From positions 1 to 64,000 of the forward strand of contig JAKSIH010000012.1 in NCBI GenBank assembly GCA_024398935.1: a DNA stretch of 64,000 nucleotides, read 5' to 3'. Shown in pieces: positions 20,461-63,193 of this stretch (position 1 is the stretch's first letter; each line of letters starts with the position of its first letter). This DNA comes from Fibrobacter sp. Lineage in GTDB: Bacteria; Fibrobacterota; Fibrobacteria; Fibrobacterales; Fibrobacteraceae. Below the pieces are notes generated by a model. The model searched no databases. It was not told the origin of the DNA and saw only the letters and a list, made by a program, of their open reading frames with translations. Both the position numbers and the translations under genes were made by a program.

Positions 20461-20548
20461 AGAACGAAAAATAAAAAATATCTTTTTATGGAATGGGCAA
20501 ATAACCCCGCAGTAAAAAACGGAAAGACCGCTTAAGACCCGATTCCCG

Positions 20549-20970
20549 GCGAAGCCCCAGTAAAATGCGGACAATCAGAATGTAAAATCAGACAACCGCA
20601 GTCGCGAAAGCGAGAGCCAAGGGGGTTCTGGCTAATGAACACTTGGGGCTTTAGCCCTTAGTGTGAATTGTCCACTTTGTGGATGGCGAAGCCCCAGTAA
20701 GATGCGGACAATCAGAATGTAAAATCAGGCAACCGCACTCGCGAAAGCGAGTGCCAAGGGGGTTCTGGCTAATGAACACTTAGGGCTTTAGCCCTTAGTG
20801 TGAATTGTCCACCTTGTGGATGGCGAAGCCCCGGTAAAATGCAGACAATCAGAATGTAAAATCAGGCAACCGCAGTCGCGAAAGCGAGTGCCAAGGGGAT
20901 TCGGGCTAATGAACACTTAGGGCTTTAGCCCTTAGTGTGAATTGTCCACTTTGTGGATGGCGAAGCCCCC
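20549..20970. repeat. Three tandem 137-bp structured repeats
   Basis: Units start at 20549, 20686 and 20823, each with GCGAAGCCCC, and a truncated fourth begins at 20960; the period is exactly 137 bp. Units differ at only a few positions. Each holds an outer pairing GGACAAT...ATTGTCC (20706-20712 with 20804-20810 in unit 2) that encloses two stem-loops, GCACTCGC-GAAA-GCGAGTGC (20735-20754) and a near-palindrome around TTAGGGCTTTAGCCC (20777-20800). A TCCAC/GTGGA hairpin closes the unit. There are no spacers, so it is not a CRISPR array. No gene lies in 20575-21238. Confidence 0.9.
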
Positions 20971-23653: not shown

Positions 23654-23660
23654 GTACAAA

Positions 23661-23960
23661 GGGGAAACTCTGTTCCCCCTTTGGAATCCCCCATGCTAGC
23701 TCCGCGGCTTTGCCCCGTCACTAGTTGTATTTGGGATGTATCGTCGGGTTCCCTCGTGTTGAGGGGAAACTCTGTTCCCCCTTTGGAATCCCCCATGCTA
23801 GCTCCGTGGCTTTGCCCCGTCACTAGTTGTATTTGGGATGTATCGTCGGGTTCCCTCGTGTTGAGGGGAAACTCTGTTCCCCCTTTGGAATCCCCCATGC
23901 TAGCTCCGTGGCTTTGCCCCGTCACTAGTTGTATTCGGGATGTTCCGTCGGAGTGTTGCG
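23661..23960. repeat. Three tandem 102-bp repeats downstream of tRNA-Gln
   Basis: Units start with GGGGAAACTCTGTTCCCC at 23661, 23763 and 23865; the period is exactly 102 bp. The first two differ by about one base (CTCCGCGG against CTCCGTGG); the third diverges after about 75 bp. The opening 18 bases form a hairpin GGGGAA/TTCCCC. Because 102 is a multiple of three and no stops occur, the repeats are open on both strands, but composition and context give no support for a protein. Confidence 0.9.
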
Positions 23961-32262: not shown

Positions 32263-32290
32263 TTCATTGTTCATTGTTCATTGTTCATTG
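32263..32290 (+). repeat. Four perfect TTCATTG heptads upstream of hisF
   Basis: TTCATTG is repeated four times without a mismatch and ends 20 bp before the hisF ATG. Related heptad arrays occur before other genes in this window. Confidence 0.9.
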
Positions 32291-32310
32291 TTAATTTCTA
32301 TTTTTCGGCT

Positions 32311-33102
32311 ATGCTTACGAAACGATTGATTGTGTGCTTGGATGTCCGTGACCGTAAGGTGACGAAGGGTGTTAAATTCAAAGGCAACATCGATATCGGT
32401 GATCCGGTGGAGATGGGTGCCCGCTATAGTGATGACGGCGTCGATGAACTGGTGTTTTATGATATTACCGCCAGCGCTGAAAATCGCCCCTGTGACATGG
32501 AAATGATTCGTCAGATTGCAAAGCGGGTGTTTATTCCCTTTGCTGTTGGCGGCGGTATCCGCAATCTGGACGACATGCACCAGGCCCTGCTTGCCGGAGC
32601 CGAAAAGGTAAGCGTGAACAGCCTTGCTGTTCTTCATCCCGAAATTATTGCAGAGGGCGCCAAGGCTTTTGGACGTCAGTGCATCGTTCTTGGCATGGAT
32701 GCCAAGTTTGTGGGCGTTTCTGAAAAGTTCCCCAGCGGTTATGAAGTGTATATTCGCGGTGGTCGTCAGGCTATGGGTCTTGATGCCGTGGAATGGGCCA
32801 AGAAGGCCGAAGAGCTGGGTGTGGGCGAAATTTGCCTGAATGCCATTGATACGGATGGCGTTCGTAACGGCTACGAACTGAACATCACCGATCAGGTGGC
32901 CAAGGCTGTGCAGATTCCTGTCATTGCAAGTGGTGGTGCGGGAACTCCTGACCACATTGTGGACCTGTTCAACAAGACTTCTGCCGATGCTGCTTTGGTT
33001 GCTTCCATGGTTCATTTTGGTGATTATACCGTGCCGCAGATTAAAGGCGAAATGCTTGCTGCAGGAATACCTGTCCGCAAGAAAATGAACGGAGAAGTTT
33101 AA
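32311..33102 (+). CDS. hisF: Imidazole glycerol phosphate synthase, cyclase subunit
   Basis: Forms imidazole glycerol phosphate and AICAR in histidine synthesis, with HisH supplying ammonia. The 263-residue TIM barrel has the expected length and motifs: [18 protein letters not shown], with the catalytic Asp of CLDV and the KGVKF phosphate loop, [12 protein letters not shown], and [13 protein letters not shown]. The second catalytic Asp lies in NAIDTDGV. The ATG at 32311 is chosen because homologues start MLTKRLI; the upstream codons run through the heptad array. No other his genes are in the window. tldD follows immediately. Confidence 0.95.
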
Positions 33103-41829: not shown

Positions 41830-41969
41830 TGTCGTTCCTTTGATGTTTCAAATATAAAAACAGATTTGTGACAAAAAATGTCTTAAAACAAAAGACATCA
41901 AAAAAAGTAAAAAAATGCTGTGGAAAAAAAGAACCGCCTCCCGGGAAGAGTGCGCTTGCACCCATCTGT

Positions 41970-41997
41970 CCTAGATCCTCGCCCCTAGTCCCTGGCC
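41970..41997 (+). repeat. Heptad array CCTNGNC x4 before the DUF5683 gene
   Basis: CCTAGAT, CCTCGCC, CCTAGTC, CCTGGCC and then a fading CCTTATT keep exact 7-bp phase and end 10-16 bp before the next start codon. Confidence 0.75.
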
Positions 41998-42013
41998 CCT
42001 TATTACTATATTA

Positions 42014-42982
42014 ATGCTTATGTTTTTTCGGTCCCTTATTCCAGGTTTGCTAGTGTCACTGCTCATGGCGGTGTCCGCTTTTGGAGCAAGCCCGCTGGAA
42101 AAGGGGAAAACTGGCATTGAATCCATTGACACTCTTGCGGTAAATGAGTGGGACATTCCGACGGAACGCAATTCGCTTGCTGCTACGATGCTTTTGAGCA
42201 TTCTGCCGGGTGGCGGACAGTATTACACGGAACATTATGTGCGGGGTGGTTTCATCACGGGGATTGAACTGCTCCTCTTTTATGAAGTGGTCTTTAACAA
42301 GTCCTTTCAGTACGATAGGGTGCTGGAACAGGCGGCACCCTTTAGGGATTCCGTTGCGTATTACACCAATCTCATGATAAAGTCCCCTTCCAGGGATAGC
42401 CTGGAAGTCTATCAGCAAAAGCGTCTAGAGCATGCCAACAGGGTACGCTCCTTTAACGACAAGAAGATGGAACAGGAAGATTTACGCAAGGCGGAAACCG
42501 CCTGGCTCTACGGCGTACATCTGTATAGTGTCTTTGATGCTTTTGGAATATGGTACAATAACAATTATCGCAGTGTTGAACAGAAAAGTATGAAAACGGC
42601 ACTTCTGTGGTCCATTATACCAGGAGCGGGGCAGATTTACAATAGGGAATTTGGCAAGGCGGGCCTACTCTACATGGGTTTGCTTGGATCTGCGGTTAGC
42701 GTGTGGACATCCCAGAATATGGTTGAGTACTATCTGGACCGTAAGCATCTTATGGCTGGGGAGAATCCGTCCGGCGAAGATTACGAAAAAATCAAGGAAC
42801 GGGTAACGTATTACAGAAAAAACAGAAACCAGTACATCTGGGCCAGTGCGTTACTTTATCTATACGCCGTGGGCGATGCCGCCGTAGATGCTCTCCTGAG
42901 CGACTTCGATAATCCCGTTCACATGGCTGTCGTGCCCCAGTTTGGGGGCGGTGCGCAAGCTGTATTTACTTTTGACTTTTAG
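42014..42982 (+). CDS. DUF5683-like membrane protein
   Basis: Protein of 322 residues with a signal peptide (MFFRSLIPGLLVSLLMAVSAFGA; the second ATG two codons in is an equal candidate start). It holds two copies of a glycine-rich membrane motif typical of DUF5683: LLSILPGGGQYYTEHYVRGGFITG (about 60-82) and LWSIIPGAGQIYNREFGKAGLLYMG (about 200-222), linked by a helical segment. The C-terminus ends in Phe (VFTFDF). Envelope protein of unknown function. Confidence 0.78.
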   Translation: MLMFFRSLIPGLLVSLLMAVSAFGASPLEKGKTGIESIDTLAVNEWDIPTERNSLAATMLLSILPGGGQYYTEHYVRGGFITGIELLLFYEVVFNKSFQYDRVLEQAAPFRDSVAYYTNLMIKSPSRDSLEVYQQKRLEHANRVRSFNDKKMEQEDLRKAETAWLYGVHLYSVFDAFGIWYNNNYRSVEQKSMKTALLWSIIPGAGQIYNREFGKAGLLYMGLLGSAVSVWTSQNMVEYYLDRKHLMAGENPSGEDYEKIKERVTYYRKNRNQYIWASALLYLYAVGDAAVDALLSDFDNPVHMAVVPQFGGGAQAVFTFDF

Positions 42983-43008: not shown

Positions 43009-43626
43009 CTAGCCGATCTTGAGGGGACGCATCTGGATACCGTCGTGAATCTTTGTGAAGGTTCCGCGGTAGTGCCCTTCGGCGTTTCGCTTGAATTCAA
43101 AGCGGGTTACCATGGCGTAGCTGAATGCGCCTTCTACGAACTGGTCGTCAGGGAGGCCACAGGCGAAATGCTGCAGTGCCGCAATGACACCGGCGTGGCT
43201 TACCCATAGAAATTCTCCATCGTCATCCAGGGTGTCGAGAAGTTTTCCTGCACGATTGTCGATGTCGTAGAAATTTTCTCCGTTTGGGAAACGGTAACCG
43301 CGCAAATTCTCTGCCCAGCCTTTCATCTGTTCCCTGGGGACTTCTGTCAGTTTCTTTCCTTCCCAGTCACCGAAGTTGATTTCGATAATTTCATCTCTTT
43401 TCTGGACGGGCAAGCCTACCGCCTTGGAGACTTTTTCCGCAAGACGCATGCAGCGCAGGAGCGGACTTGCGAAAAGTTGCGAGGGCTTTGCGTTCGCATC
43501 GAGCAGGGCCTTGATGGCGCCGTCGCTTTCTTCTTCAAAAGTGGGGGAGACGTCAAAATCCAGACGGCCGTAGCATAGGTCATTGGGGTTATAGGGCTTG
43601 GTGTGGCGGATGGTCCAGAGAATCAT
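43009..43626 (-). CDS. Histidine phosphatase family protein, CobC-like
   Basis: Protein of 205 residues. The phosphohistidine motif is IRHTKP near the N-terminus, and the following CYGRLDFDVSPTF matches the CobC/alpha-ribazole phosphatase subgroup, which typically has RHTxP and CYGxxD. Later come FASPLLRCMRLAEKV (second Arg), INFGDWEGK and VSHAGVIAAL (second His). That subgroup removes the phosphate of alpha-ribazole phosphate in cobalamin assembly, but no other cobalamin gene is in the window, so a general phosphatase is also possible. The start codon abuts a heptad array. Confidence 0.8.
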   Translation of the reverse strand: MILWTIRHTKPYNPNDLCYGRLDFDVSPTFEEESDGAIKALLDANAKPSQLFASPLLRCMRLAEKVSKAVGLPVQKRDEIIEINFGDWEGKKLTEVPREQMKGWAENLRGYRFPNGENFYDIDNRAGKLLDTLDDDGEFLWVSHAGVIAALQHFACGLPDDQFVEGAFSYAMVTRFEFKRNAEGHYRGTFTKIHDGIQMRPLKIG

Positions 43627-43627
43627 A

Positions 43628-43676
43628 GTGAACGGTGAATAGTGAAGAGTGAAGAATGAAAAATGAAGAATGAAGG
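43628..43676. repeat. Seven consecutive degenerate GTGAANA/ATGAANA heptads
   Basis: GTGAACG, GTGAATA, GTGAAGA, GTGAAGA, ATGAAAA, ATGAAGA, ATGAAGG in unbroken 7-bp phase, beginning 2 bp upstream of the phosphatase start codon. In the sense of that gene the units read TTCAYTN. Confidence 0.9.
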
Positions 43677-43688
43677 GTGGGGGTGGCG

Positions 43689-43730
43689 AAAAAATAAAAA
43701 ATAACCCGCGGTTTGTTTCCCGGCGGGTTA
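43689..43730 (-). terminator. Terminator of the SRP RNA gene
   Basis: TAACCCGC/GCGGGTTA stem (43702-43730) with a T-run on the minus strand, 9 bases downstream of the RNA. Confidence 0.8.
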
Positions 43731-43738
43731 ATAAAAAA

Positions 43739-43834
43739 TCCTAGGCTACCTGAGCACATAAAAACTCGCAAGTCCGTTGCTGCTTTCGCCCTGGCGATTT
43801 GCCCGCAAATAGTCATTGCGCAGGGCCTAGGACC
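43739..43834 (-). ncRNA. ffs: Bacterial small signal recognition particle RNA (4.5S type)
   Basis: Minus-strand RNA of about 96 nt folding into one long hairpin. The ends pair perfectly (TCCTAGGC/GCCTAGGA), extended by CCTG/CAGG. The apex shows the conserved SRP domain: CCAGG, a GC-GAAA-GC tetraloop hairpin, then AGCAACGG, corresponding to the symmetric loop that binds Ffh. A strong promoter and a terminator flank it. AGCAA replaces the usual AGCAG. Tetraloop and loop position match family RNAs; a covariance search would settle it. Confidence 0.78.
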
Positions 43835-44039: not shown

Positions 44040-44225
44040 GTTGTTGATTAGGTGTTGAGAAAATGGGAACTTTTACCACACTTTTTTGACTTGTTCCAAG
44101 CTGGATTATTGCATGTGTAATTTTTTTTTAGTATTTTTCGTAAGAGATAGGGTGTGAAGGAACTTATTCCAAATTGGAATATTTGTGAGTTTTTTTTGTT
44201 CGTTTTTCATCTAAGGAGATGGAAT

Positions 44226-47200
44226 ATGCGATTTGGACAAGACTTGTTAAGAAAAATTGCCATGGCACTGGCTATGGTGGTCCCCGCTATGGCTGCGGAT
44301 GTTGCTCCGCTGTACTTCCAGGGCGCGACCGACGACCAGGCATACTGGGACGAACTCATGTCGTTCAAGATGTGGGGTACCAATGGCATTAAGTTTGGTC
44401 ATGCGACGATGACCGACCTTAGCGGCGCCGTGGGTACGGCGGGCGATCTTTACCTGGATATTGAAAAGCATACAATCGGCGGCCCGATCTTCGTGGGTGG
44501 CAAAGTGTATGGTAGTAACGGCGGTGATACCTTGATGAGCGGTCCGGTCCGTGTCAAGGGGGATTTTACCGCAGGTCAGAATGGCAGCCGCTATAACGGA
44601 ACCTACTGTATCGAAGGTACTGCTAACGATAACCTCAAGAAGTATTCTCATAGTGGTGGAAGCGTAGAGCCCAGAGAAGAAGATGAAATTTACGGTCGGG
44701 TTTATTCCGGTGACGACGCAAAGGCCGGTGACTGCGCCTATGATGTCCTGAAGGATGTTCCCACTCACTTGACCATTCCTCTGATTCCGGATCATGAATA
44801 TGCTCCGGCAATTACGGTTCGTGGCCAAAATCTCTATGTGAAGAATTCATACGGTGGAGATTCCTTAATTGGAAACTACATTGATGTTCCTCCTCTGAGT
44901 GAAGGTAAGCTTCAGGACTTCTACATCGAAAAGATTTCTTTCAATAATGATGCGACACTTATCATCCGTATGGAATCTGCCAAGAGCCTGACTCGCATAT
45001 TCCTAAATGAAAACATTAATGTCAGCTCTCAGACGAACATCAAGATTGTCTATGTTGATTCCGACGCAAAGTTTGTGGACGGAAAGTGGACCAACGTGAC
45101 TTCTATGACCCAGGTAGATAATGAAGACTACGCTGGTAATTTGCTTTTTTACATGAAGGGCGACATGACCTGGCCGTCCATGAATAAGGGCACCTCCGAA
45201 CAGGGTACCTTTATCTCTCAGGGAACAATTACTGTTGGTGCAAACCTTAAGTTGGCTGGTCAGTTCCTCGCAGATAGTGTTGTTGTGGGACACGAATTTG
45301 ATGGTACCGGATTCCGTTATGTTCCGTTCGATCCTCCTGTTCTGAATCTGGAACCCGAGGTCGGTACCAAGCTTGAATTCCCGGAAAATGGTGTCTTTGT
45401 AAAGGTTCCCATTAAACTTGACGAATTCCCCAAGGTGAACGTCTACTTTAACTACTGTTTCGAAGTCCTTTCTGGTTCTGGAGCCGCATCTCTCGAAGAC
45501 TTTGGCGAAGACGAAAATGGTGTATACCAGCGTCCTCTTTGCTCTCAGGGACAGGTAGGGAAGGTTGCCATTATGGCTGGTGCCAAGAGCCCTGCCGATG
45601 GTGCCGATGTAAGTGCCTGGATCAAGGTGCTCATGGATGATGAAATCGAAGGTAACGAAACCTTGCGCTTTGTCATCAAGGACTTGAGCGGTGCCGTGAT
45701 GCCTGGCGACAAGCGTGAAGGTTTCTTTGATTTGATTCTGGTTGATTCCGACCTGCACCCGAAGACCAAGGATGATTCTATCCATGTGGTTGAAGATTCT
45801 CCGTATACCTTTGCAACAACTAAGTTTGCTTATCAGGGTGTGAATGCTCAGAAAGGTGTTGCTATCAGGACGCTTCCTACGAAGGGCTATTTGCTCCTGG
45901 ATGGAGATACCGTTACAACTGCCATGATCGTTAATCTGGCCGATATTGAAGACGGTAAGCTGCAGTATATCAATGAAAAGGATGAATACAACGGATCCAA
46001 GGTGTATGCAACCTTTACCTTCGGTGTTATCGATATCGAAAACAATGCTACCGAAGATAAGGACATCAAGACCATGTCCATCTATGTGCAGCCCGTCAAC
46101 GACGCTCCTTTCGTTGCGGAAAGCCAGGAAATGTCTGTTGATGAAAACGCGAAGAATGGTTCCGTAGTGGATACCTTCATTGCAACTGATGTTGACGGCG
46201 ATGTTCTTACCTATGCTTTTGATAAGGACGATGCCAACTACGCTACCGTTTCTTCCATCTTCGCAATCGACAGCAAGACTGGTGTTGTTACTGTGAAGGA
46301 TGGCTCCAAGCTTGACTTCGAATCTGGTGTAACTTCCTACACCATTAATGTCAAGGTTACCGACGACGCTTCTACGACTGGTGGCTCCAATGTGAAGACT
46401 TCTACCGGTTCCTTGACCATCAATGTTAACGATGTTAATGAAGAGCATATTGTCAAGAATATCGTCTGGTCCATTACCGAAGGCGAAACCTACGGCTCCT
46501 ATCCGAGTGGTTTCGGAAACATCAAGGATTCCATTGTGGATCCGGATTCCCTGTCTGCAACCAAGGCATGGAAGACTTATTCCTTTGTGATTGTGGAAAA
46601 TCAGGATGAGGATAAGACTAATGATGTTCCTTTCTATCTCAATGCAAAGACTGGCGTCATGAAGATTGAGAATGATTCTTCTGTAAAAATCGATTTTGAA
46701 ACCAATCCTCAGTACACATTCCATGTCCTGGTGAAGGATAGCGTGAAGAATGAAGATGGTTCCTATGGTCAGTATGAATACACTGCCCTGGTGACCGTAA
46801 ACGTGGAGGATATCCCCGAAGCTCCTGAATTTGGCAAGGTCAAGGGTTCCTACGCCGTTGACGAACATACTCCGGGTGGAGAACTCTTTGACAAGATTCC
46901 TTTGTTTGATCAGGATTCTGGCGAATTCGGCAAGGACGGAAGAGCTACTGTTGAACTTGTGGACAATAATCCTGTAGATGGAGCTCTTTCTGCAACAGAT
47001 CTTTTTGACGTGTCCTTCGCTACTGCTGCAGATGGTAAGACTTACGTGGTGGCGCTGACTGTTAAGGATGTAAAGGATGTGGAAAAGCTTTTGGACTACG
47101 AAGCTCTCTACGAATCCCACTTTGAAAAGGATTCTTCCGCAGTTCTCTTTGATGTTACGATTACTGTTACTGATAAGGACGGCTTGACCGCTTCCACCAC

Positions 47201-50200
47201 CACCAAGATTAAGGTGGTTGACATTAACGAAGAGCCGACGGCCCAGGATGATACCTTTGAAGTTGCCGAATACACTGAAAATGGTGCAGAAGGTTCTTCT
47301 AAGGAAGGTGACTTTGTTGGTCAGGTGATTGCCTCTGACCCGGATACCAAGAATCCGGACTTTGGTACCCTCTACTATTCTATTGTTGAAAATACGGATG
47401 AAGATAAGACCAACGATGTGCCTTTCACCGTTACCGAAGATGGTAAGATTCTTGTGGGTAAGGATGCTGACCGTCTGAACCTTGAGGGTGATGAAGCAAG
47501 TTTCGTTATTCACGTTGCCGTGACCGATGGCGTGATTGATGAACCCAAGATTGCAACCATTACTATTAACCTGACCAATGTGAATGAACCGCCTACCATC
47601 ACCGATGATGGCAAGGACTGGAACATTAATGAACATGTGGCCAAGGGGACCGAGGTTTCTGGTCAGAACCTTGTGGCTTCTGATGCGGACAAGGGCGATG
47701 CCCTGACCTACTCCATGACCGATGCTTCTGGTATCTTTACCATTGATCCCAGCACGGGCAAGGTTTCCGTCAAGGATTCCGTAAAGCTCGACTATGAACT
47801 GTATGCCAAGTCTGAAAAGGAAAAGGTTTCCTTTGTGGTGACTATCACTGCAACCGACAAGGATGGCGAAACCGCTTCTGTGAACAAGACTATTGTCATC
47901 AATGATGTAAACGAAGATCCTTCTGCTAAGGATGATACCTTTGAAGTGGCTGAATTCACCGGCGTGGGTGAGGAAGGTTCTTCTAAGGAAGGTGATTTTG
48001 TGGGTCAGGTAACCGCAGCTGATCCGGATACCAAGAATGCCGACTTCGGTACTCTCTACTATTCCATCGTTGAAAATACCGATGCAGACAAGACCAATGA
48101 CGTCCCCTTCACTGTTACCGAAGATGGTAAGATCCTTGTGGGCAAGGATGTTGAACGCCTCAACCTTGAAGGTGACGAAGCAAGCTTCGTTATCCATGTG
48201 GCTGTAACTGATGGTGTGATTAAGGAACCTAAGATTGCTGAAATTACCATCAGCTTGACCAACGTGAATGAAAATCCTGTCATTACCGACGATGGCAAGG
48301 ATTGGAATATCAACGAACATGTGGCCAAGGGAACGGAGGTTTCCGGTCAGAACCTTTCTGCAAGTGATCCGGATGCTGGTGACAAGCTGACATTCTCCAT
48401 GACTGATGCTTCTGGCATCTTCACCATCGATCCGAGCACCGGTAAGGTTTCTGTCAAGGATTCCGTAAAGCTTGATTATGAACAGTATGCCAAGTCTGAA
48501 AAGGAAAAGGTTTCCTTCGACGTGACCATCGTTGTTACCGACGCCGACGGAAAGACCGCGTCTAAGAAGAAGACTATCGTCATCAATGATGTTAACGAAG
48601 AGCCTTCTACAAAGGACGACTCCTTCGAAGTTGCTGAATTTACCGGCGTTGGCGAAGAAGGCTCTTCCAAGGAAGGTGATTTCGTGGGTCAGGTAACTGC
48701 AACTGATCCGGATACCAAGAATGCCGACTTCGGTACTCTCTACTATTCCATCGTTGAAAATACGGATGCAGACAAGACCAATGACGTTCCCTTCACGGTT
48801 ACTGCAGACGGTAAGATTTTGGTTGGTAAGGATGTCGAACGCCTCAATCTCGAAGGTGACGAAGCTAGCTTCGTTATTCATGTGGCTGTAACTGACGGTG
48901 TTATTAAGGAACCTAAGATTGCTGAAATTACCATTAGCTTGACCAACGTGAATGAACCGCCCACCATTGCTGATGATGGTAAGGACTGGAACATCAACGA
49001 ACATGTGGCCAAGGGTTCCGTGGTGGTTGGTCAGAATCTCACTGCTTCTGATTCCGACGAAGGCGATGCATTGACCTTCTCTATGACCGATGCATCTGGC
49101 ATCTTCACCATCGATCCTGTTACCGGTAAGGTTTCCGTCAAGGATTCTGTAAAGCTCGACTACGAACTTTATGCCAAGTCCGAAAAGGAAAAGGTGTCCT
49201 TCGAAGTGACTGTTACTGTTGCTGATAAGGATGGCAGAACGGATGCGGTGAAGAAGACTATCGTTATTAACGATGTCAATGAAGCTCCGGAGTTCGAAGA
49301 TCCGAATGTACCTGATGTTGGCGAACTTCGCAAGAATGGCGATGTAGTCGCAACTGTCGTTGCAAACGAACCGGATGCCAAGAATGTTGAATTCCGTCAT
49401 CTGGAATACACCATCCTTACTCCCAATATGCCTATGGCAATGGATTCCAATAAGGTTGTGGTAACGGATGCAAGCAAGTTTGACTTCGAAACCAATCCCA
49501 AGTTCAACTTCGAAGTTGAAGTGAAGAACTGCCTGAAGAATGCTACTACAGGTAAGTACACCGAAAGCTGCCTGGCTGACACCGTTGAAGTTACCCTGGG
49601 TCTCTTTGACGAAGACGAAAAGCCGGAAATTATTCCTGTACCTGATCCGGAATGTGATGAAAATGATCCGAATTGCCACAAGTGTGATGCAACCATCGCT
49701 GATTGCGGTCATCCGGATGTACCTCCTCCCAGCGATTGCGTCGAAAACTGCGGTTATGCTGTAAAGGACACTATCTACATCAACGTGAAGGAAAATTCTC
49801 CTGCCGGTACCGTTATCCTGGAATACCTGGTGAAGGATGAAGACAAGGATGAAGTGACCAAGTTGATTCCGACCTTTGAATCCGTGAACAAGTCCGGTGC
49901 AGATTCCCTGTTTGACATTTCCCTGGAAAAGAAGGGGGACGATTACAAGATTGTGCTGAAGGTTGCCGAAGGTGCTGACCTTGACTATGAAAAGGTAAAT
50001 GAACTCCATAAGTTGGTGATTACCGTAACGGATCCCACCAATCTCAAGGATGACATCTTCCGCGTCATCAAGGTCGTGGACGTGAACGAACCTCCGTTCA
50101 TCGTCAAGCAGGAATTTGACTTCGATGAACATAACGAAGCTGGTTCCACCGTGGGTAAGATTGAATGGGGTGATGACTTGGATACCAAGGAACCCAGTTT

Positions 50201-53192
50201 CCGCGATAACAAGGTTGAGCTGGTTGGTGGTGACACGGACAAGTTTGCTGTTGACCCCACTGGTCTCATTACCACGAAGGTTCCTTTCAACTATGAAACT
50301 AACGACTCTGTCTACACCCTTGTCGTGAAGGTTGTCGATAAGAATGACCCGACGCTCTTCGTTGTGGATACCATGACGATTAAGCTGAACAATGTTCCTG
50401 AAACTCCGTATATCACTTCTACCGAATTTGAAATTCCGGAAAATCCGAAGAACAAGGAAGTCATCGGTGTCATTACTTCCGAAGACCTGGATGATTTGGA
50501 AAATAAGGATGAACGTGTCTATACCTTGGTCGGTACCAGTGATTATGTCACTGTTACTGAAGATGGTAAGATTCTCGTGAAGGATAGCACCAAGTTCGAC
50601 TTCGAGAAGGTTGAAACTATCAAGATCAAGGTGAAGGTAACCGATCCTCAGGGCGAATCCTCCGATACAACCATCGTAATCAATATTAAGGATGAAAACG
50701 AGGAACCCACCATTGAAGACCAGACCATCACGGTTTCCGAAGATGCCGCACCCAACACTGTCATTGACACTCTGGTTGCAAGCGATCCGGATATCAAGTC
50801 TAAGGACTTTGGTGAACTGACTTACACCATTGTAGGTGGTGATACCGCTGTATTCAAGGTCGATCCCAAGACTGGTGAAGTGATTCTGAAGGATTCCCTG
50901 GATTATGAAAAGAAGAAAGAATACGAACTTGTGGTTGAAGTTTCCGATGGTACTTACAGCGATACTGCCAAGGTTACCATTAAGGTTGACAACGTGGATG
51001 AAAAGTCTGTCGTTGAAATTACCCAGGTTTGCGATAGCGATTCCTGCCGTGTAAAGCCGGACTCCGTATTCACTCATATTCCTGACATAACGATTTGCTG
51101 GAATGAAGGTCGTGAAATTTGCGAAAAGTCCAAGTGCACCGTCCTGAGCAAGGAAGTCTGCCAGGATACCACCCTGACCGAAGGTATTCATACCATCGTG
51201 AAGGAATTCAAGGACCCGTCTACCGATGTTCCGGGCTTTGATACTGTTGTGGTATTCGTAAGCACCTCTACGCCTATCGTGACTGTGTCTGCGAATACGG
51301 ATTCCCTGGATGCCGCAAACATCTATACGGTTGAAGAATCTCTGGGTGAAAACGACTCTAACATCTATGTGAACAGTTCCACGAACGATATTCGAGTGAC
51401 GATCAAGGATCCGGTCACCAAGAAGGATTCCTCCTTCGTGGTGAAACTGGAACTGGATACCCTGAATGTCGGCAAGAAGGACCTGGAAACAGTGACTTCC
51501 GTGGTGGAAAAGGGTAGCGTTTCGCTTAACCTCAACCCCACGGGTACCGTAACGCATACTCCGGTGAACGGAACCGAAGTGAAGGTTTCCTACACTGAAG
51601 AGGTAAACGGCAAGAAGGTTACCGTAAGCTATGTAACCGATAACGCAGGCGAAGTTGTCAAGACTCCGGTTTACGACGAAAAGGGTAATGTAGACTCTAT
51701 TGAAGTGATTACGGTTTCTTATGAAATCACTCTCGGCGGCAAGAAGGTTACCGTTTCTTACCAGGCTGACGCTATTACCGGTCAGGCTCTGAATGTTGCT
51801 GCCGATGGATCTCTGACTACAGCAGAAAAGCTGGTGGTTGCTGGATCTAACGGATCCTCCGATAAGGACAATACCTCTAGTGGCAAGCCCGGTTCTAGCG
51901 ACAACGGTGGTAAGCCCGGTTCCAGCAGCTCTAACGGTAGCAAGCCTGGCTCTAGTACTTCTACGGGTTCTTCTGTTAGCGATGAAATCGTACAGAACGT
52001 GGGTTCCTACAAGGTTACCTACGACTATGTGGATGAAAAGGGTAACTCTGTTGTTGTGACCTATACCATCGACGAGGAAGGCAACATCGTGAAGAATGGT
52101 GAAGGTGACATTGGTTATACCGTTTCCTACACCTATGTGAACAAGTTCGGTAACTCTGCAACTCAGTCCGTGTTCATTGTTCTTGACCAGGTTGGTCCGA
52201 AGGTTGAAATTCTTGCTCCGACCCACATGCAGGTCATTCGTTCCAACTTTGTGGAAGTTACCTGGACCGTTAATGGCGTTGTCCAGGATACCCTGACCTT
52301 GCAGGGTCTTGAAAAGGGACCCAACTGGATTGCCCGTTACTACCGCGACAAGGCTGGTAACGAAGCAAGAGATTCCGTTCTGGTCATCATGAAGGATGGT
52401 AAGGATGTGGATCTCGCTGTGGAACAGCCTGTAGTTGAAATCACCAAGGAAAAGGTTGAAGAATACTACGCTGTGAACCCGCCGAAGGAAGGTGAAAAGG
52501 TTGCAATTAGCATTAGGAATCCCTCTACCGGTAAGGAAGTGGAAACCTTGATTGCTGGTACCTTCGGAACAGAAGATGGGTCTGGCGACACTCCGTATCC
52601 GGGTGTTTCCGGTGATACTCACCTTGGTCCGACCCTCTCTATGGAAGTTCGTCTGCCTGTGGTTAACGACGTGGGTGGCCTTGCAACCCTCGACGACCTG
52701 ATCGGCTCTGACGGTCTGATTTCCCTGGACGGTGTGGATGCCAAGAATGCTGAAAAGGTTTCCGTGGAAGAATACGTGGATACCTACTGTAAGGAAGGTT
52801 TCAAGTTCGATGGCGACTTTAGCCGTGTCAACCTCTATAAGTCCAAGATGATTGTGCAGGTCTGGATCTACACGACCCTCGGAAACTTCGTAGACTACTA
52901 CACCTTCAAGCAGGACCTGAACGATCCGGATTTCACCAACGAAGCAGGTATGCTTGAAATGTACATGGAACTTAAACCGGACCGCGAAGGCGAAGTTCAC
53001 ACTGAAGATGGTCATGTCCTCGCTACGGGTGCTTACCTCTACAAGGTGGATGCAAAGATTCGAGCCGAGCTGCAGTGTACTCTGCCTCCGGTGAAGGATC
53101 AGACCACTTCCGCCAAGAAGAAGGGTGATGTCATCAAGAAGTCTGATGAAATGCTGAAATCCTTCGGTTATAAGCGTCCGAACAAGAAGTAA
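44226..53192 (+). CDS. Giant secreted cadherin-repeat surface protein
   Basis: Protein of 2988 residues starting MRFGQDLLRKIAMALAMVV, with ribosome binding site AAGGAG; the longer frame adds an unlikely 24 residues. Order: signal peptide (about 1-24), N-terminal beta region (about 30-380, with IGGPIFVGGKVYGSNGG), a Calx-beta-like unit (about 390-510), then about fourteen cadherin-like repeats (about 510-2250), each closed by a motif like VNEPP, VNEAP or VNEEPS. Three units of 228 residues are nearly identical. The C-terminal part has cysteines, Gly/Ser/Lys linkers (about 2540-2580), Tyr/Thr-rich strands and a Lys-rich tail (SFGYKRPNKK). Such proteins act in Ca-dependent adhesion. No LPXTG or lipobox; export route unknown. 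Confidence 0.85.
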   Translation: MRFGQDLLRKIAMALAMVVPAMAADVAPLYFQGATDDQAYWDELMSFKMWGTNGIKFGHATMTDLSGAVGTAGDLYLDIEKHTIGGPIFVGGKVYGSNGGDTLMSGPVRVKGDFTAGQNGSRYNGTYCIEGTANDNLKKYSHSGGSVEPREEDEIYGRVYSGDDAKAGDCAYDVLKDVPTHLTIPLIPDHEYAPAITVRGQNLYVKNSYGGDSLIGNYIDVPPLSEGKLQDFYIEKISFNNDATLIIRMESAKSLTRIFLNENINVSSQTNIKIVYVDSDAKFVDGKWTNVTSMTQVDNEDYAGNLLFYMKGDMTWPSMNKGTSEQGTFISQGTITVGANLKLAGQFLADSVVVGHEFDGTGFRYVPFDPPVLNLEPEVGTKLEFPENGVFVKVPIKLDEFPKVNVYFNYCFEVLSGSGAASLEDFGEDENGVYQRPLCSQGQVGKVAIMAGAKSPADGADVSAWIKVLMDDEIEGNETLRFVIKDLSGAVMPGDKREGFFDLILVDSDLHPKTKDDSIHVVEDSPYTFATTKFAYQGVNAQKGVAIRTLPTKGYLLLDGDTVTTAMIVNLADIEDGKLQYINEKDEYNGSKVYATFTFGVIDIENNATEDKDIKTMSIYVQPVNDAPFVAESQEMSVDENAKNGSVVDTFIATDVDGDVLTYAFDKDDANYATVSSIFAIDSKTGVVTVKDGSKLDFESGVTSYTINVKVTDDASTTGGSNVKTSTGSLTINVNDVNEEHIVKNIVWSITEGETYGSYPSGFGNIKDSIVDPDSLSATKAWKTYSFVIVENQDEDKTNDVPFYLNAKTGVMKIENDSSVKIDFETNPQYTFHVLVKDSVKNEDGSYGQYEYTALVTVNVEDIPEAPEFGKVKGSYAVDEHTPGGELFDKIPLFDQDSGEFGKDGRATVELVDNNPVDGALSATDLFDVSFATAADGKTYVVALTVKDVKDVEKLLDYEALYESHFEKDSSAVLFDVTITVTDKDGLTASTTTKIKVVDINEEPTAQDDTFEVAEYTENGAEGSSKEGDFVGQVIASDPDTKNPDFGTLYYSIVENTDEDKTNDVPFTVTEDGKILVGKDADRLNLEGDEASFVIHVAVTDGVIDEPKIATITINLTNVNEPPTITDDGKDWNINEHVAKGTEVSGQNLVASDADKGDALTYSMTDASGIFTIDPSTGKVSVKDSVKLDYELYAKSEKEKVSFVVTITATDKDGETASVNKTIVINDVNEDPSAKDDTFEVAEFTGVGEEGSSKEGDFVGQVTAADPDTKNADFGTLYYSIVENTDADKTNDVPFTVTEDGKILVGKDVERLNLEGDEASFVIHVAVTDGVIKEPKIAEITISLTNVNENPVITDDGKDWNINEHVAKGTEVSGQNLSASDPDAGDKLTFSMTDASGIFTIDPSTGKVSVKDSVKLDYEQYAKSEKEKVSFDVTIVVTDADGKTASKKKTIVINDVNEEPSTKDDSFEVAEFTGVGEEGSSKEGDFVGQVTATDPDTKNADFGTLYYSIVENTDADKTNDVPFTVTADGKILVGKDVERLNLEGDEASFVIHVAVTDGVIKEPKIAEITISLTNVNEPPTIADDGKDWNINEHVAKGSVVVGQNLTASDSDEGDALTFSMTDASGIFTIDPVTGKVSVKDSVKLDYELYAKSEKEKVSFEVTVTVADKDGRTDAVKKTIVINDVNEAPEFEDPNVPDVGELRKNGDVVATVVANEPDAKNVEFRHLEYTILTPNMPMAMDSNKVVVTDASKFDFETNPKFNFEVEVKNCLKNATTGKYTESCLADTVEVTLGLFDEDEKPEIIPVPDPECDENDPNCHKCDATIADCGHPDVPPPSDCVENCGYAVKDTIYINVKENSPAGTVILEYLVKDEDKDEVTKLIPTFESVNKSGADSLFDISLEKKGDDYKIVLKVAEGADLDYEKVNELHKLVITVTDPTNLKDDIFRVIKVVDVNEPPFIVKQEFDFDEHNEAGSTVGKIEWGDDLDTKEPSFRDNKVELVGGDTDKFAVDPTGLITTKVPFNYETNDSVYTLVVKVVDKNDPTLFVVDTMTIKLNNVPETPYITSTEFEIPENPKNKEVIGVITSEDLDDLENKDERVYTLVGTSDYVTVTEDGKILVKDSTKFDFEKVETIKIKVKVTDPQGESSDTTIVINIKDENEEPTIEDQTITVSEDAAPNTVIDTLVASDPDIKSKDFGELTYTIVGGDTAVFKVDPKTGEVILKDSLDYEKKKEYELVVEVSDGTYSDTAKVTIKVDNVDEKSVVEITQVCDSDSCRVKPDSVFTHIPDITICWNEGREICEKSKCTVLSKEVCQDTTLTEGIHTIVKEFKDPSTDVPGFDTVVVFVSTSTPIVTVSANTDSLDAANIYTVEESLGENDSNIYVNSSTNDIRVTIKDPVTKKDSSFVVKLELDTLNVGKKDLETVTSVVEKGSVSLNLNPTGTVTHTPVNGTEVKVSYTEEVNGKKVTVSYVTDNAGEVVKTPVYDEKGNVDSIEVITVSYEITLGGKKVTVSYQADAITGQALNVAADGSLTTAEKLVVAGSNGSSDKDNTSSGKPGSSDNGGKPGSSSSNGSKPGSSTSTGSSVSDEIVQNVGSYKVTYDYVDEKGNSVVVTYTIDEEGNIVKNGEGDIGYTVSYTYVNKFGNSATQSVFIVLDQVGPKVEILAPTHMQVIRSNFVEVTWTVNGVVQDTLTLQGLEKGPNWIARYYRDKAGNEARDSVLVIMKDGKDVDLAVEQPVVEITKEKVEEYYAVNPPKEGEKVAISIRNPSTGKEVETLIAGTFGTEDGSGDTPYPGVSGDTHLGPTLSMEVRLPVVNDVGGLATLDDLIGSDGLISLDGVDAKNAEKVSVEEYVDTYCKEGFKFDGDFSRVNLYKSKMIVQVWIYTTLGNFVDYYTFKQDLNDPDFTNEAGMLEMYMELKPDREGEVHTEDGHVLATGAYLYKVDAKIRAELQCTLPPVKDQTTSAKKKGDVIKKSDEMLKSFGYKRPNKK
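47229..49280 (+). repeat. Three tandem 684-bp units inside the cadherin gene
   Basis: Units start at 47229, 47913 and 48597, each with a GAAGAxCC opening, and the next domain begins at 49281: exactly 684 bp (228 codons) each. Each unit encodes two cadherin-like domains. Synonymous changes show that they are not fresh copies. Confidence 0.9.
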
Positions 53193-63067: not shown

Positions 63068-63072
63068 AAGTA

Positions 63073-63107
63073 ATTAATGATTGATAATGGATGATTGATG
63101 ATTGTTA
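63073..63107. repeat. Five ATTGATG-like heptads upstream of tsaB
   Basis: ATTAATG, ATTGATA, ATGGATG, ATTGATG, ATTGTTA in exact 7-bp phase, starting 5 bp from the tsaB start codon. Confidence 0.85.
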
Positions 63108-63137
63108 AATATAGCGGCGTAGCGGCGATTATAACTA

Positions 63138-63165
63138 ATTATCAATTTTCAATCATCAATCCTCA
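63138..63165. repeat. Four ATNNTCA heptads in opposite orientation
   Basis: ATTATCA, ATTTTCA, ATCATCA, ATCCTCA. Their reverse complement resembles the array at 63073-63107, so the two can pair across a 30-bp middle part. They lie in the gap between ddl and tsaB. Confidence 0.85.
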
Positions 63166-63193
63166 ATTTTAGGAGATTTCAATATAAAATCTC

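Follow-up and report, generated by a model that had tools for sequence, protein, structure and literature searches.

Heptad arrays between genes of Fibrobacter are probably arms of a family of short palindromic repeats

The tandem arrays of 7-nt units that lie between the genes of Fibrobacter are probably paired or single arms of short palindromic repeats, an intergenic family that is spread or homogenised by copying, a reading to which we assign a probability of roughly 0.6. The hairpin repeat family is apparently previously undescribed, and our literature search turned up no publication that connects such repeats with Fibrobacter. A full element measures about 100-130 bp. It begins with purine heptads and continues through a short linker rich in A and T to a hairpin of GC pairs, usually GCGGC-NNN-GCCGC, which is followed by GATTATAAA and finally by pyrimidine heptads; it usually spans the gap from the stop of one gene to the start of the next. 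The solo arrays may be elements whose second arm was lost or never present.

The arrays were noticed in a window of 64,000 nucleotides (contig JAKSIH010000012.1 of assembly GCA_024398935.1), whose features are collected in Table 1. According to Pfam, the neighbouring genes encode HisF, a His_Phos_1 histidine phosphatase (the CobC-like gene), a TsaB-type protein, Ddl and a DUF5683 protein. The tsaB and ddl arrays are two arms of one hairpin element, and the inverted array after ddl, which the first-pass annotation had counted separately, is actually the second arm of the element to which the tsaB array belongs. The arrays at hisF, CobC and DUF5683 resemble solo arms. An SRP RNA gene immediately precedes the CobC-like gene, and this neighbourhood was conserved in nearly all of the 30 genus loci inspected. 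Two long tandem repeats with about 95-97% identity were also observed in the window, at 20548-20969 (137 bp x 3.1) and 23660-23951 (102 bp x 2.9), as was a 3012-aa open frame at 44154-53192 that contains an antisense open frame of 2670 aa at 45003-53015.

Table 1. Arrays, hairpin core and RNA gene context in the 64,000-nucleotide window
Feature	Position	Strand	Basis	Units and setting
Element arm 1 (purine strand)	63073..63104	+	lag-7 segment, heptad consensus match	TTAATGA TTGATAA TGGATGA TTGATGA; the minus strand is a pyrimidine-rich leader that stops 5 nt short of the tsaB start (63067, -)
Element core hairpin GCGGC-GTA-GCGGC-GATTAT	63114..63132	+	whole-genome pattern search	member of the GCNNC-NNN-GNNGC-GATTAT family with a single stem mismatch
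Element arm 2 (purine strand = minus)	63137..63167	-	lag-7 segment, orientation, consensus match	TTGAGGA TTGATGA TTGAAAA TTGATAA (minus strand); core on one side, ddl (stop 63194) on the other
Apparent solo pyrimidine arm, hisF	32263..32304	+	lag-7 segment	4 x TTCATTG, then TTAATTT; 6 nt upstream of the hisF start at 32311
Apparent solo pyrimidine arm, CobC-like gene	43628..43675	-	lag-7 segment; unstructured as RNA	TTCATTC TTCATTT TTCATTC TTCACTC TTCACTA TTCACCG (CobC sense); 1 nt upstream of the start at 43626 (-); preceded by the SRP RNA gene with its terminator-like hairpin
Apparent solo pyrimidine arm, weak and degenerate, DUF5683 gene	41969..42000	+	score 7.5, partial consensus match	CCTAGAT CCTCGCC CCTAGTC CCTGGCC CCT; 13 nt upstream of the ATG at 42014
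Bacterial small SRP RNA gene (context)	43736..43832	-	Rfam RF00169, 42.9 bits vs gathering score 40	

The period of these arrays is specific. In the window, four segments with a score of at least 11 were found at lag 7 and none at lags 4-6, 8-11 or 13. The lag-7 autocorrelation check that had been proposed along with the annotation was carried out on 841 kb of the source genome (G000, a 2.9-Mb draft that is 82.6% complete) and bore the period out: with a score threshold of 12, there were 73 self-match segments at lag 7, compared with none at lags 4, 5, 8 and 13, one each at lags 10 and 11, and a single lag-7 segment in a fifth-order Markov simulation of the same length. The array density in these 841 kb is a biased estimate, because the stretches came mostly from contigs with a match to TTCANT. 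Arrays with lag 7 were also present in 14 other genomes of the genus and in one genome from another family of the class, and several 16-60 kb samples contained none. The exact 7-bp phase claimed for the window was thus recovered at hisF, CobC and tsaB and after ddl, and only weakly at DUF5683.

When 114 arrays were fitted for orientation and phase, they yielded one unit, which reads TKRWNRR on the purine strand and YYNWYMA on the complementary strand; C was almost missing from most positions. All 18 whole heptads in the four clear window arrays agree with TKRWNRR at every position, the DUF5683 array being the sole deviant, and the arrays therefore do not differ in sequence in the way that the annotation had described. 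The most frequent heptads were TGGTTAG, TGAAGAA, TTGATGA, TGAAAGA and TGAACAA. The annotation's further proposal, that selection or a copying process acts on length 7 and not on one motif, holds for the length, which is kept at 7 throughout the genus while the bases change, so that something acting on length 7 remains a sound idea; the supposed freedom of the bases is contradicted by the single consensus and the single orientation rule.

We then considered how the arrays lie relative to genes, as called by a simple purpose-written caller. Of the 73 arrays, 72 were mainly intergenic and one lay mainly inside a called gene. The nearest gene end was a start for 42 of the 71 intergenic arrays, compared with 39.4 +/- 3.7 when arrays were scattered at random over the same gaps; 25 arrays lay within 20 bp of a stop and 21 within 20 bp of a start, with about 14.7 expected for each. 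Array-bearing gaps showed no clear preference among codirectional, divergent and convergent classes in comparison with array-free gaps (p = 0.16). The arrays thus adjoin gene edges of both kinds, and the suggested link to start codons was rejected, on the very outcome that the annotation had named as its refutation. They would lie at start codons because the elements fill short gaps between a stop and a start.

The strict rule is one of orientation: reading out of a gene past its stop gives the purine strand, and reading into a gene at its start gives the pyrimidine strand. Near starts the pyrimidine strand was sense in 39 cases and antisense in 3, while near stops it was antisense in 22 and sense in 7. 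Neighbouring arrays were ordered from purine to pyrimidine in 37 instances and in reverse in only 2. Lone arrays in codirectional gaps obeyed the same rule in 12 of 12 cases near starts and in 8 of 11 near stops. The arm lengths of lag-7 pairs were not correlated (rho = -0.05). Of 27 genes preceded by an array at a distance of no more than 60 nt, only 2 possessed a Shine-Dalgarno (SD)-like motif, compared with 288 of 582. This scarcity arises because the pyrimidine strand occupies that position, though the arrays may still affect translation.

Many array pairs flank a GC hairpin of the form GCGGC-NNN-GCCGC-GATTAT. A search of 19 genomes of the genus located the core GCGGCNNNGCCGCGATTA in 15 of them, with up to 28 copies per genome; it was absent from all 12 genomes of other genera, and the reversed-pattern control gave no match. 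Among 90 copies of GCGGCNNNGCCGCGATTA inspected, 55 lay between two arrays, 30 had an array at one side only and 5 had none, and 3 of these last 5 look coding. A longer core pattern was searched for across 84,980 species, and all 50 matches carried Fibrobacter in their titles. Of these, 47 could be placed; none of the 47 fell in a called gene, and 44 had at least one arm; the left arms were of the purine type in 32 of 34 copies and the right arms of the pyrimidine type in 35 of 38, and the median distances from the core midpoint to the flanking genes were 55 and 72 bp.

The stem of the core covaries. With the partly freed pattern GCNNCNNNGNNGCGATTAT, the free positions were complementary in 139 of 150 copies among the matches listed, and the stem pairs included GG/CC, GC/GC, AG/CT, GA/TC, AC/GT and TG/CA. 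The pattern GCNNC-NNN-GNNGC-GATTAT reached about 35 copies per genome. Relative to the flank, loop triplets were about as common as their reverse complements (GAA 19 and TTC 14, AAA 10 and TTT 12), which favours processing at the DNA level over a selected RNA loop.

Other small repeats were observed beside these cores and arrays. Six copies of GCGCC-NNN-GGCGC-GATTAT were present in G026, which belongs to another genus of the same order, so the core family may predate the genus. At five loci of the source genome, a second core, composite and about 75 bp long (GGGATGTCGGGAATACTCC...AAAGATGTAACCTCCTTGAAATCGCAAGCACTTGCATCCCGCGGCCCTA), occurred in about nine copies, with heptads of TGGTTAG at one flank and of CCCTAGAC at the opposite flank. 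A third repeat, CTCTAGGAGCGAAGCTCCGACCTCATACCTCAAGCGAAGCGTACCCCCTGAACTAG, lay amid heptad arrays at four loci of this genome, and at the same four loci a GTCATTCTGA...GAAGAATC repeat was interspersed among the arrays. A palindrome of the GTCATCCTGAGCGGAGCAACGAAGTTGCGTAGTCGAAGGATCC type was seen at three loci in the intergenic DNA upstream of hisF in relatives, and a second small hairpin, TCATGCACTTCGTGCATC-like, was often found next to the GCGGC core on its purine-arm side in the genomes G001 and G006 (L280-L319).

The two arms of the window element (63068-63172) pair in the predicted fold (MFE -24.8, z = -4.93), and the solo CobC array (43600-43690, minus strand) is unstructured (z = 0.55). 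The annotation's suggestion of an unstructured leader therefore suits the solo arrays and fails for the paired ones, which form a strong hairpin. In the core-bearing set, an arm aligned better with its own partner than with a partner swapped within the genome in 59 of 85 cases (p = 1.3e-4), and the RNA duplex was also stronger with its own partner (-25.3 vs -21.9, p = 8e-5), with both strands in agreement. Whole elements had an MFE of -37.0, compared with -27.1 when the arms were shuffled. Because own and swapped partners did not differ significantly in complementarity over all lag-7 pairs (p = 0.36), the effect of arm pairing is moderate and partly one of subfamily.

Sites were compared across the genus with one genome per species. 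At hisF, most of the sampled members carried no array and two carried other heptads. At the CobC and ddl-tsaB sites, the heptads differed between species at the same place, and in the ddl-tsaB gap both arms had changed together in several species. Flank homology revealed about fifteen element sites common to different species, a number that looks well above that from random insertion, and element positions are inherited. The heptads were the same at some shared sites, as in L311 and L333, while at others the core was kept and both arms had changed type (CTTCCTA in L310 and L334, CTAACCA in L322, TTGATGA in L253). At several shared sites the core was inverted between species. In addition, exact heptad blocks of 31-46 nt were common to non-homologous loci, some of them with the variant unit CTTCTAA at a fixed place, which argues that arms were copied as blocks.

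The hairpin would accordingly be the conserved part of the family, and copies may arise and be homogenised by copying of DNA between dispersed elements, through REP- or MITE-like spread or through gene conversion. Slippage would add and remove units in 7-bp steps, and the arms may remain complementary since the unit that is copied, corrected or selected is the hairpin as such. No mobilising enzyme was found, and a link to a RAYT/IS200 transposase was not supported: the Y1/RAYT family PF01797 was absent from the 82.6%-complete G000 and also from G006, a genome with a completeness rating of 100% and 28 core copies, and the nine Y1 loci found in other genomes contained no core copy. As many arrays lie with a core A, a core B or no core, and about half of the array-bearing gaps hold one array only, one element family may not explain everything.

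Several other explanations were weighed against a palindromic repeat family. A functional intercistronic RNA hairpin, in which the folded transcript stabilises, insulates or couples two cistrons, is possible, though we hold it to be improbable. It would agree with the strong fold of whole elements, the stem covariation, the retention at orthologous sites and the short distances between core and genes, but elements occur in divergent and convergent gaps too, and no RNA loop sequence is preferred, because a loop is roughly as frequent as its reverse complement and the orientation of the core varies between species at several sites. We consider it unlikely that the pyrimidine heptads at starts are leader elements, selected as an unstructured region for SD-less initiation or for binding of a regulator, a comparable role having been proposed for TAACTGA repeats in Beggiatoaceae (PMC4679880). 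The sense orientation of the pyrimidine strand at starts, including every single start-proximal array in codirectional gaps, the rarity of SD-like motifs and the lack of structure in solo arrays all accord with such a role. However, stops are adjoined as often as starts, the genes are unrelated and the gap classes unselective, most relatives lack an array at the hisF site, and the absence of SD motifs is a trivial outcome of a pyrimidine strand at that place.

Plain neutral tandem repeats, produced by independent polymerase slippage with a preference for 7 nt and tolerated only between genes, would account for the intergenic location. Among long simple repeats, heptads are the most frequent in many bacteria, and the polymerase footprint has been put forward as a cause (Mrazek 2007, as cited in PMC4679880 and PMC4692102). 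The inverted orientation rule, the conserved and covarying core, the complementarity of the arms and the identical blocks at unrelated loci are nevertheless left unexplained, and this reading seems to us rather unlikely. Sequence and gap class speak against two further readings. Bidirectional transcription terminators, intrinsic or Rho-dependent, would be composed of the hairpin and a pyrimidine arm, and a G-poor strand does exit in each direction; yet intrinsic terminators have a U-run directly after the hairpin, whereas the Fibrobacter core is followed by GATTATAAA and then pyrimidine heptads, there is no enrichment in convergent gaps, which make up 3 of the 49 array gaps and hold 7 of the 47 cores, and there is little room for Rho before the next gene because the arms abut start codons. 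Such a function is very improbable. The least credible reading, in our estimate, is that of G-quadruplex repeats like the heptads GGGAATC of Xanthomonas and GGGGA(C/T)T of Nostoc: the gene geometry and the inverted pairs do match that report (PMC4692102), but most Fibrobacter heptads (TGAAGAA, TTGATGA, TGAACAA, TTAACAA) have no G-tract.

These Xanthomonas and Nostoc/Anabaena heptads are the closest published system. They are intergenic 7-nt repeats that were interpreted through G-quadruplexes; their purine strand is the coding strand right after stops and the non-coding strand right before starts, there are 70-75 inverted heptad pairs per Xanthomonas genome, related genomes mostly keep the sites but differ in the length and sequence of the repeats, and no class of genes is preferred (PMC4692102). 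The Fibrobacter arrays share with them the unit length, the strand rule, the inverted pairs and the retention of a site despite changes in sequence. Xanthomonas and Nostoc, however, have essentially one G-tract heptad per genome, whereas Fibrobacter has many heptads under one degenerate consensus, the commonest of them without GGG, as well as a defined covarying hairpin core and changes of whole-arm type between species. What is new is therefore a well-marked family of hairpin elements, and what was known but unexplained is the existence of intergenic heptads with the same geometry.

Direct TAACTGA repeats have been described in Beggiatoaceae, cyanobacteria and Bacteroidetes; they have one exact sequence, mostly in 2-6 copies, and are mostly start-oriented in the Beggiatoaceae genome (PMC4679880). 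They resemble the Fibrobacter arrays in having 7-nt units a few nucleotides from starts, rare SD motifs and unrelated genes, and differ in that no hairpin of paired arms is mentioned for them in the sections consulted (PMC4679880). TAACTGA was not among the commonest Fibrobacter heptads listed, and the Fibrobacter arrays, unlike those repeats, have no specific preference for starts. Elhai and colleagues reportedly described in 2008 the small dispersed repeats (SDR) of Nostoc as minute hairpins that show compensatory changes in their stems and are embedded in heptameric repeats. The Fibrobacter elements resemble hairpins of that kind but would differ from them in sequence, in host and in the inversion of the heptads at the hairpin. 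As short, dispersed extragenic palindromes with covarying stems, they are also similar to REP/BIME sequences and MITEs: they form a many-copy extragenic palindrome with a conserved stem-loop and flank, as REPs do, and their inverted arms, ordered 37:2 and pairing better with their own partners, correspond to the terminal inverted repeats of MITEs. They differ from REP/BIME in having no associated RAYT (Y1 transposase) gene in G000 or G006, and from all three in that the arms are tandem heptads and not unique sequence.

Few long simple repeats are as over-represented in bacteria as heptameric ones, whose cause and function still call for an explanation. In Fibrobacter, many heptad types come with one consensus, one orientation rule and a hairpin core that marks homologous sites, and these elements thereby separate what is constrained (length, strand and pairing) from what is free (the letters). 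The same geometry without G-tracts weakens the G-quadruplex explanation for Xanthomonas and Nostoc, and same-site comparisons can distinguish slippage, gene conversion and transposition. More speculatively, and we regard this as doubtful, the heptads of Fibrobacter, Xanthomonas and Nostoc might all belong to one class of intergenic palindromes, in which a dedicated copying process rewrites the arms together in 7-nt steps. If this were true, pairing and length would be inherited and the letters would not.
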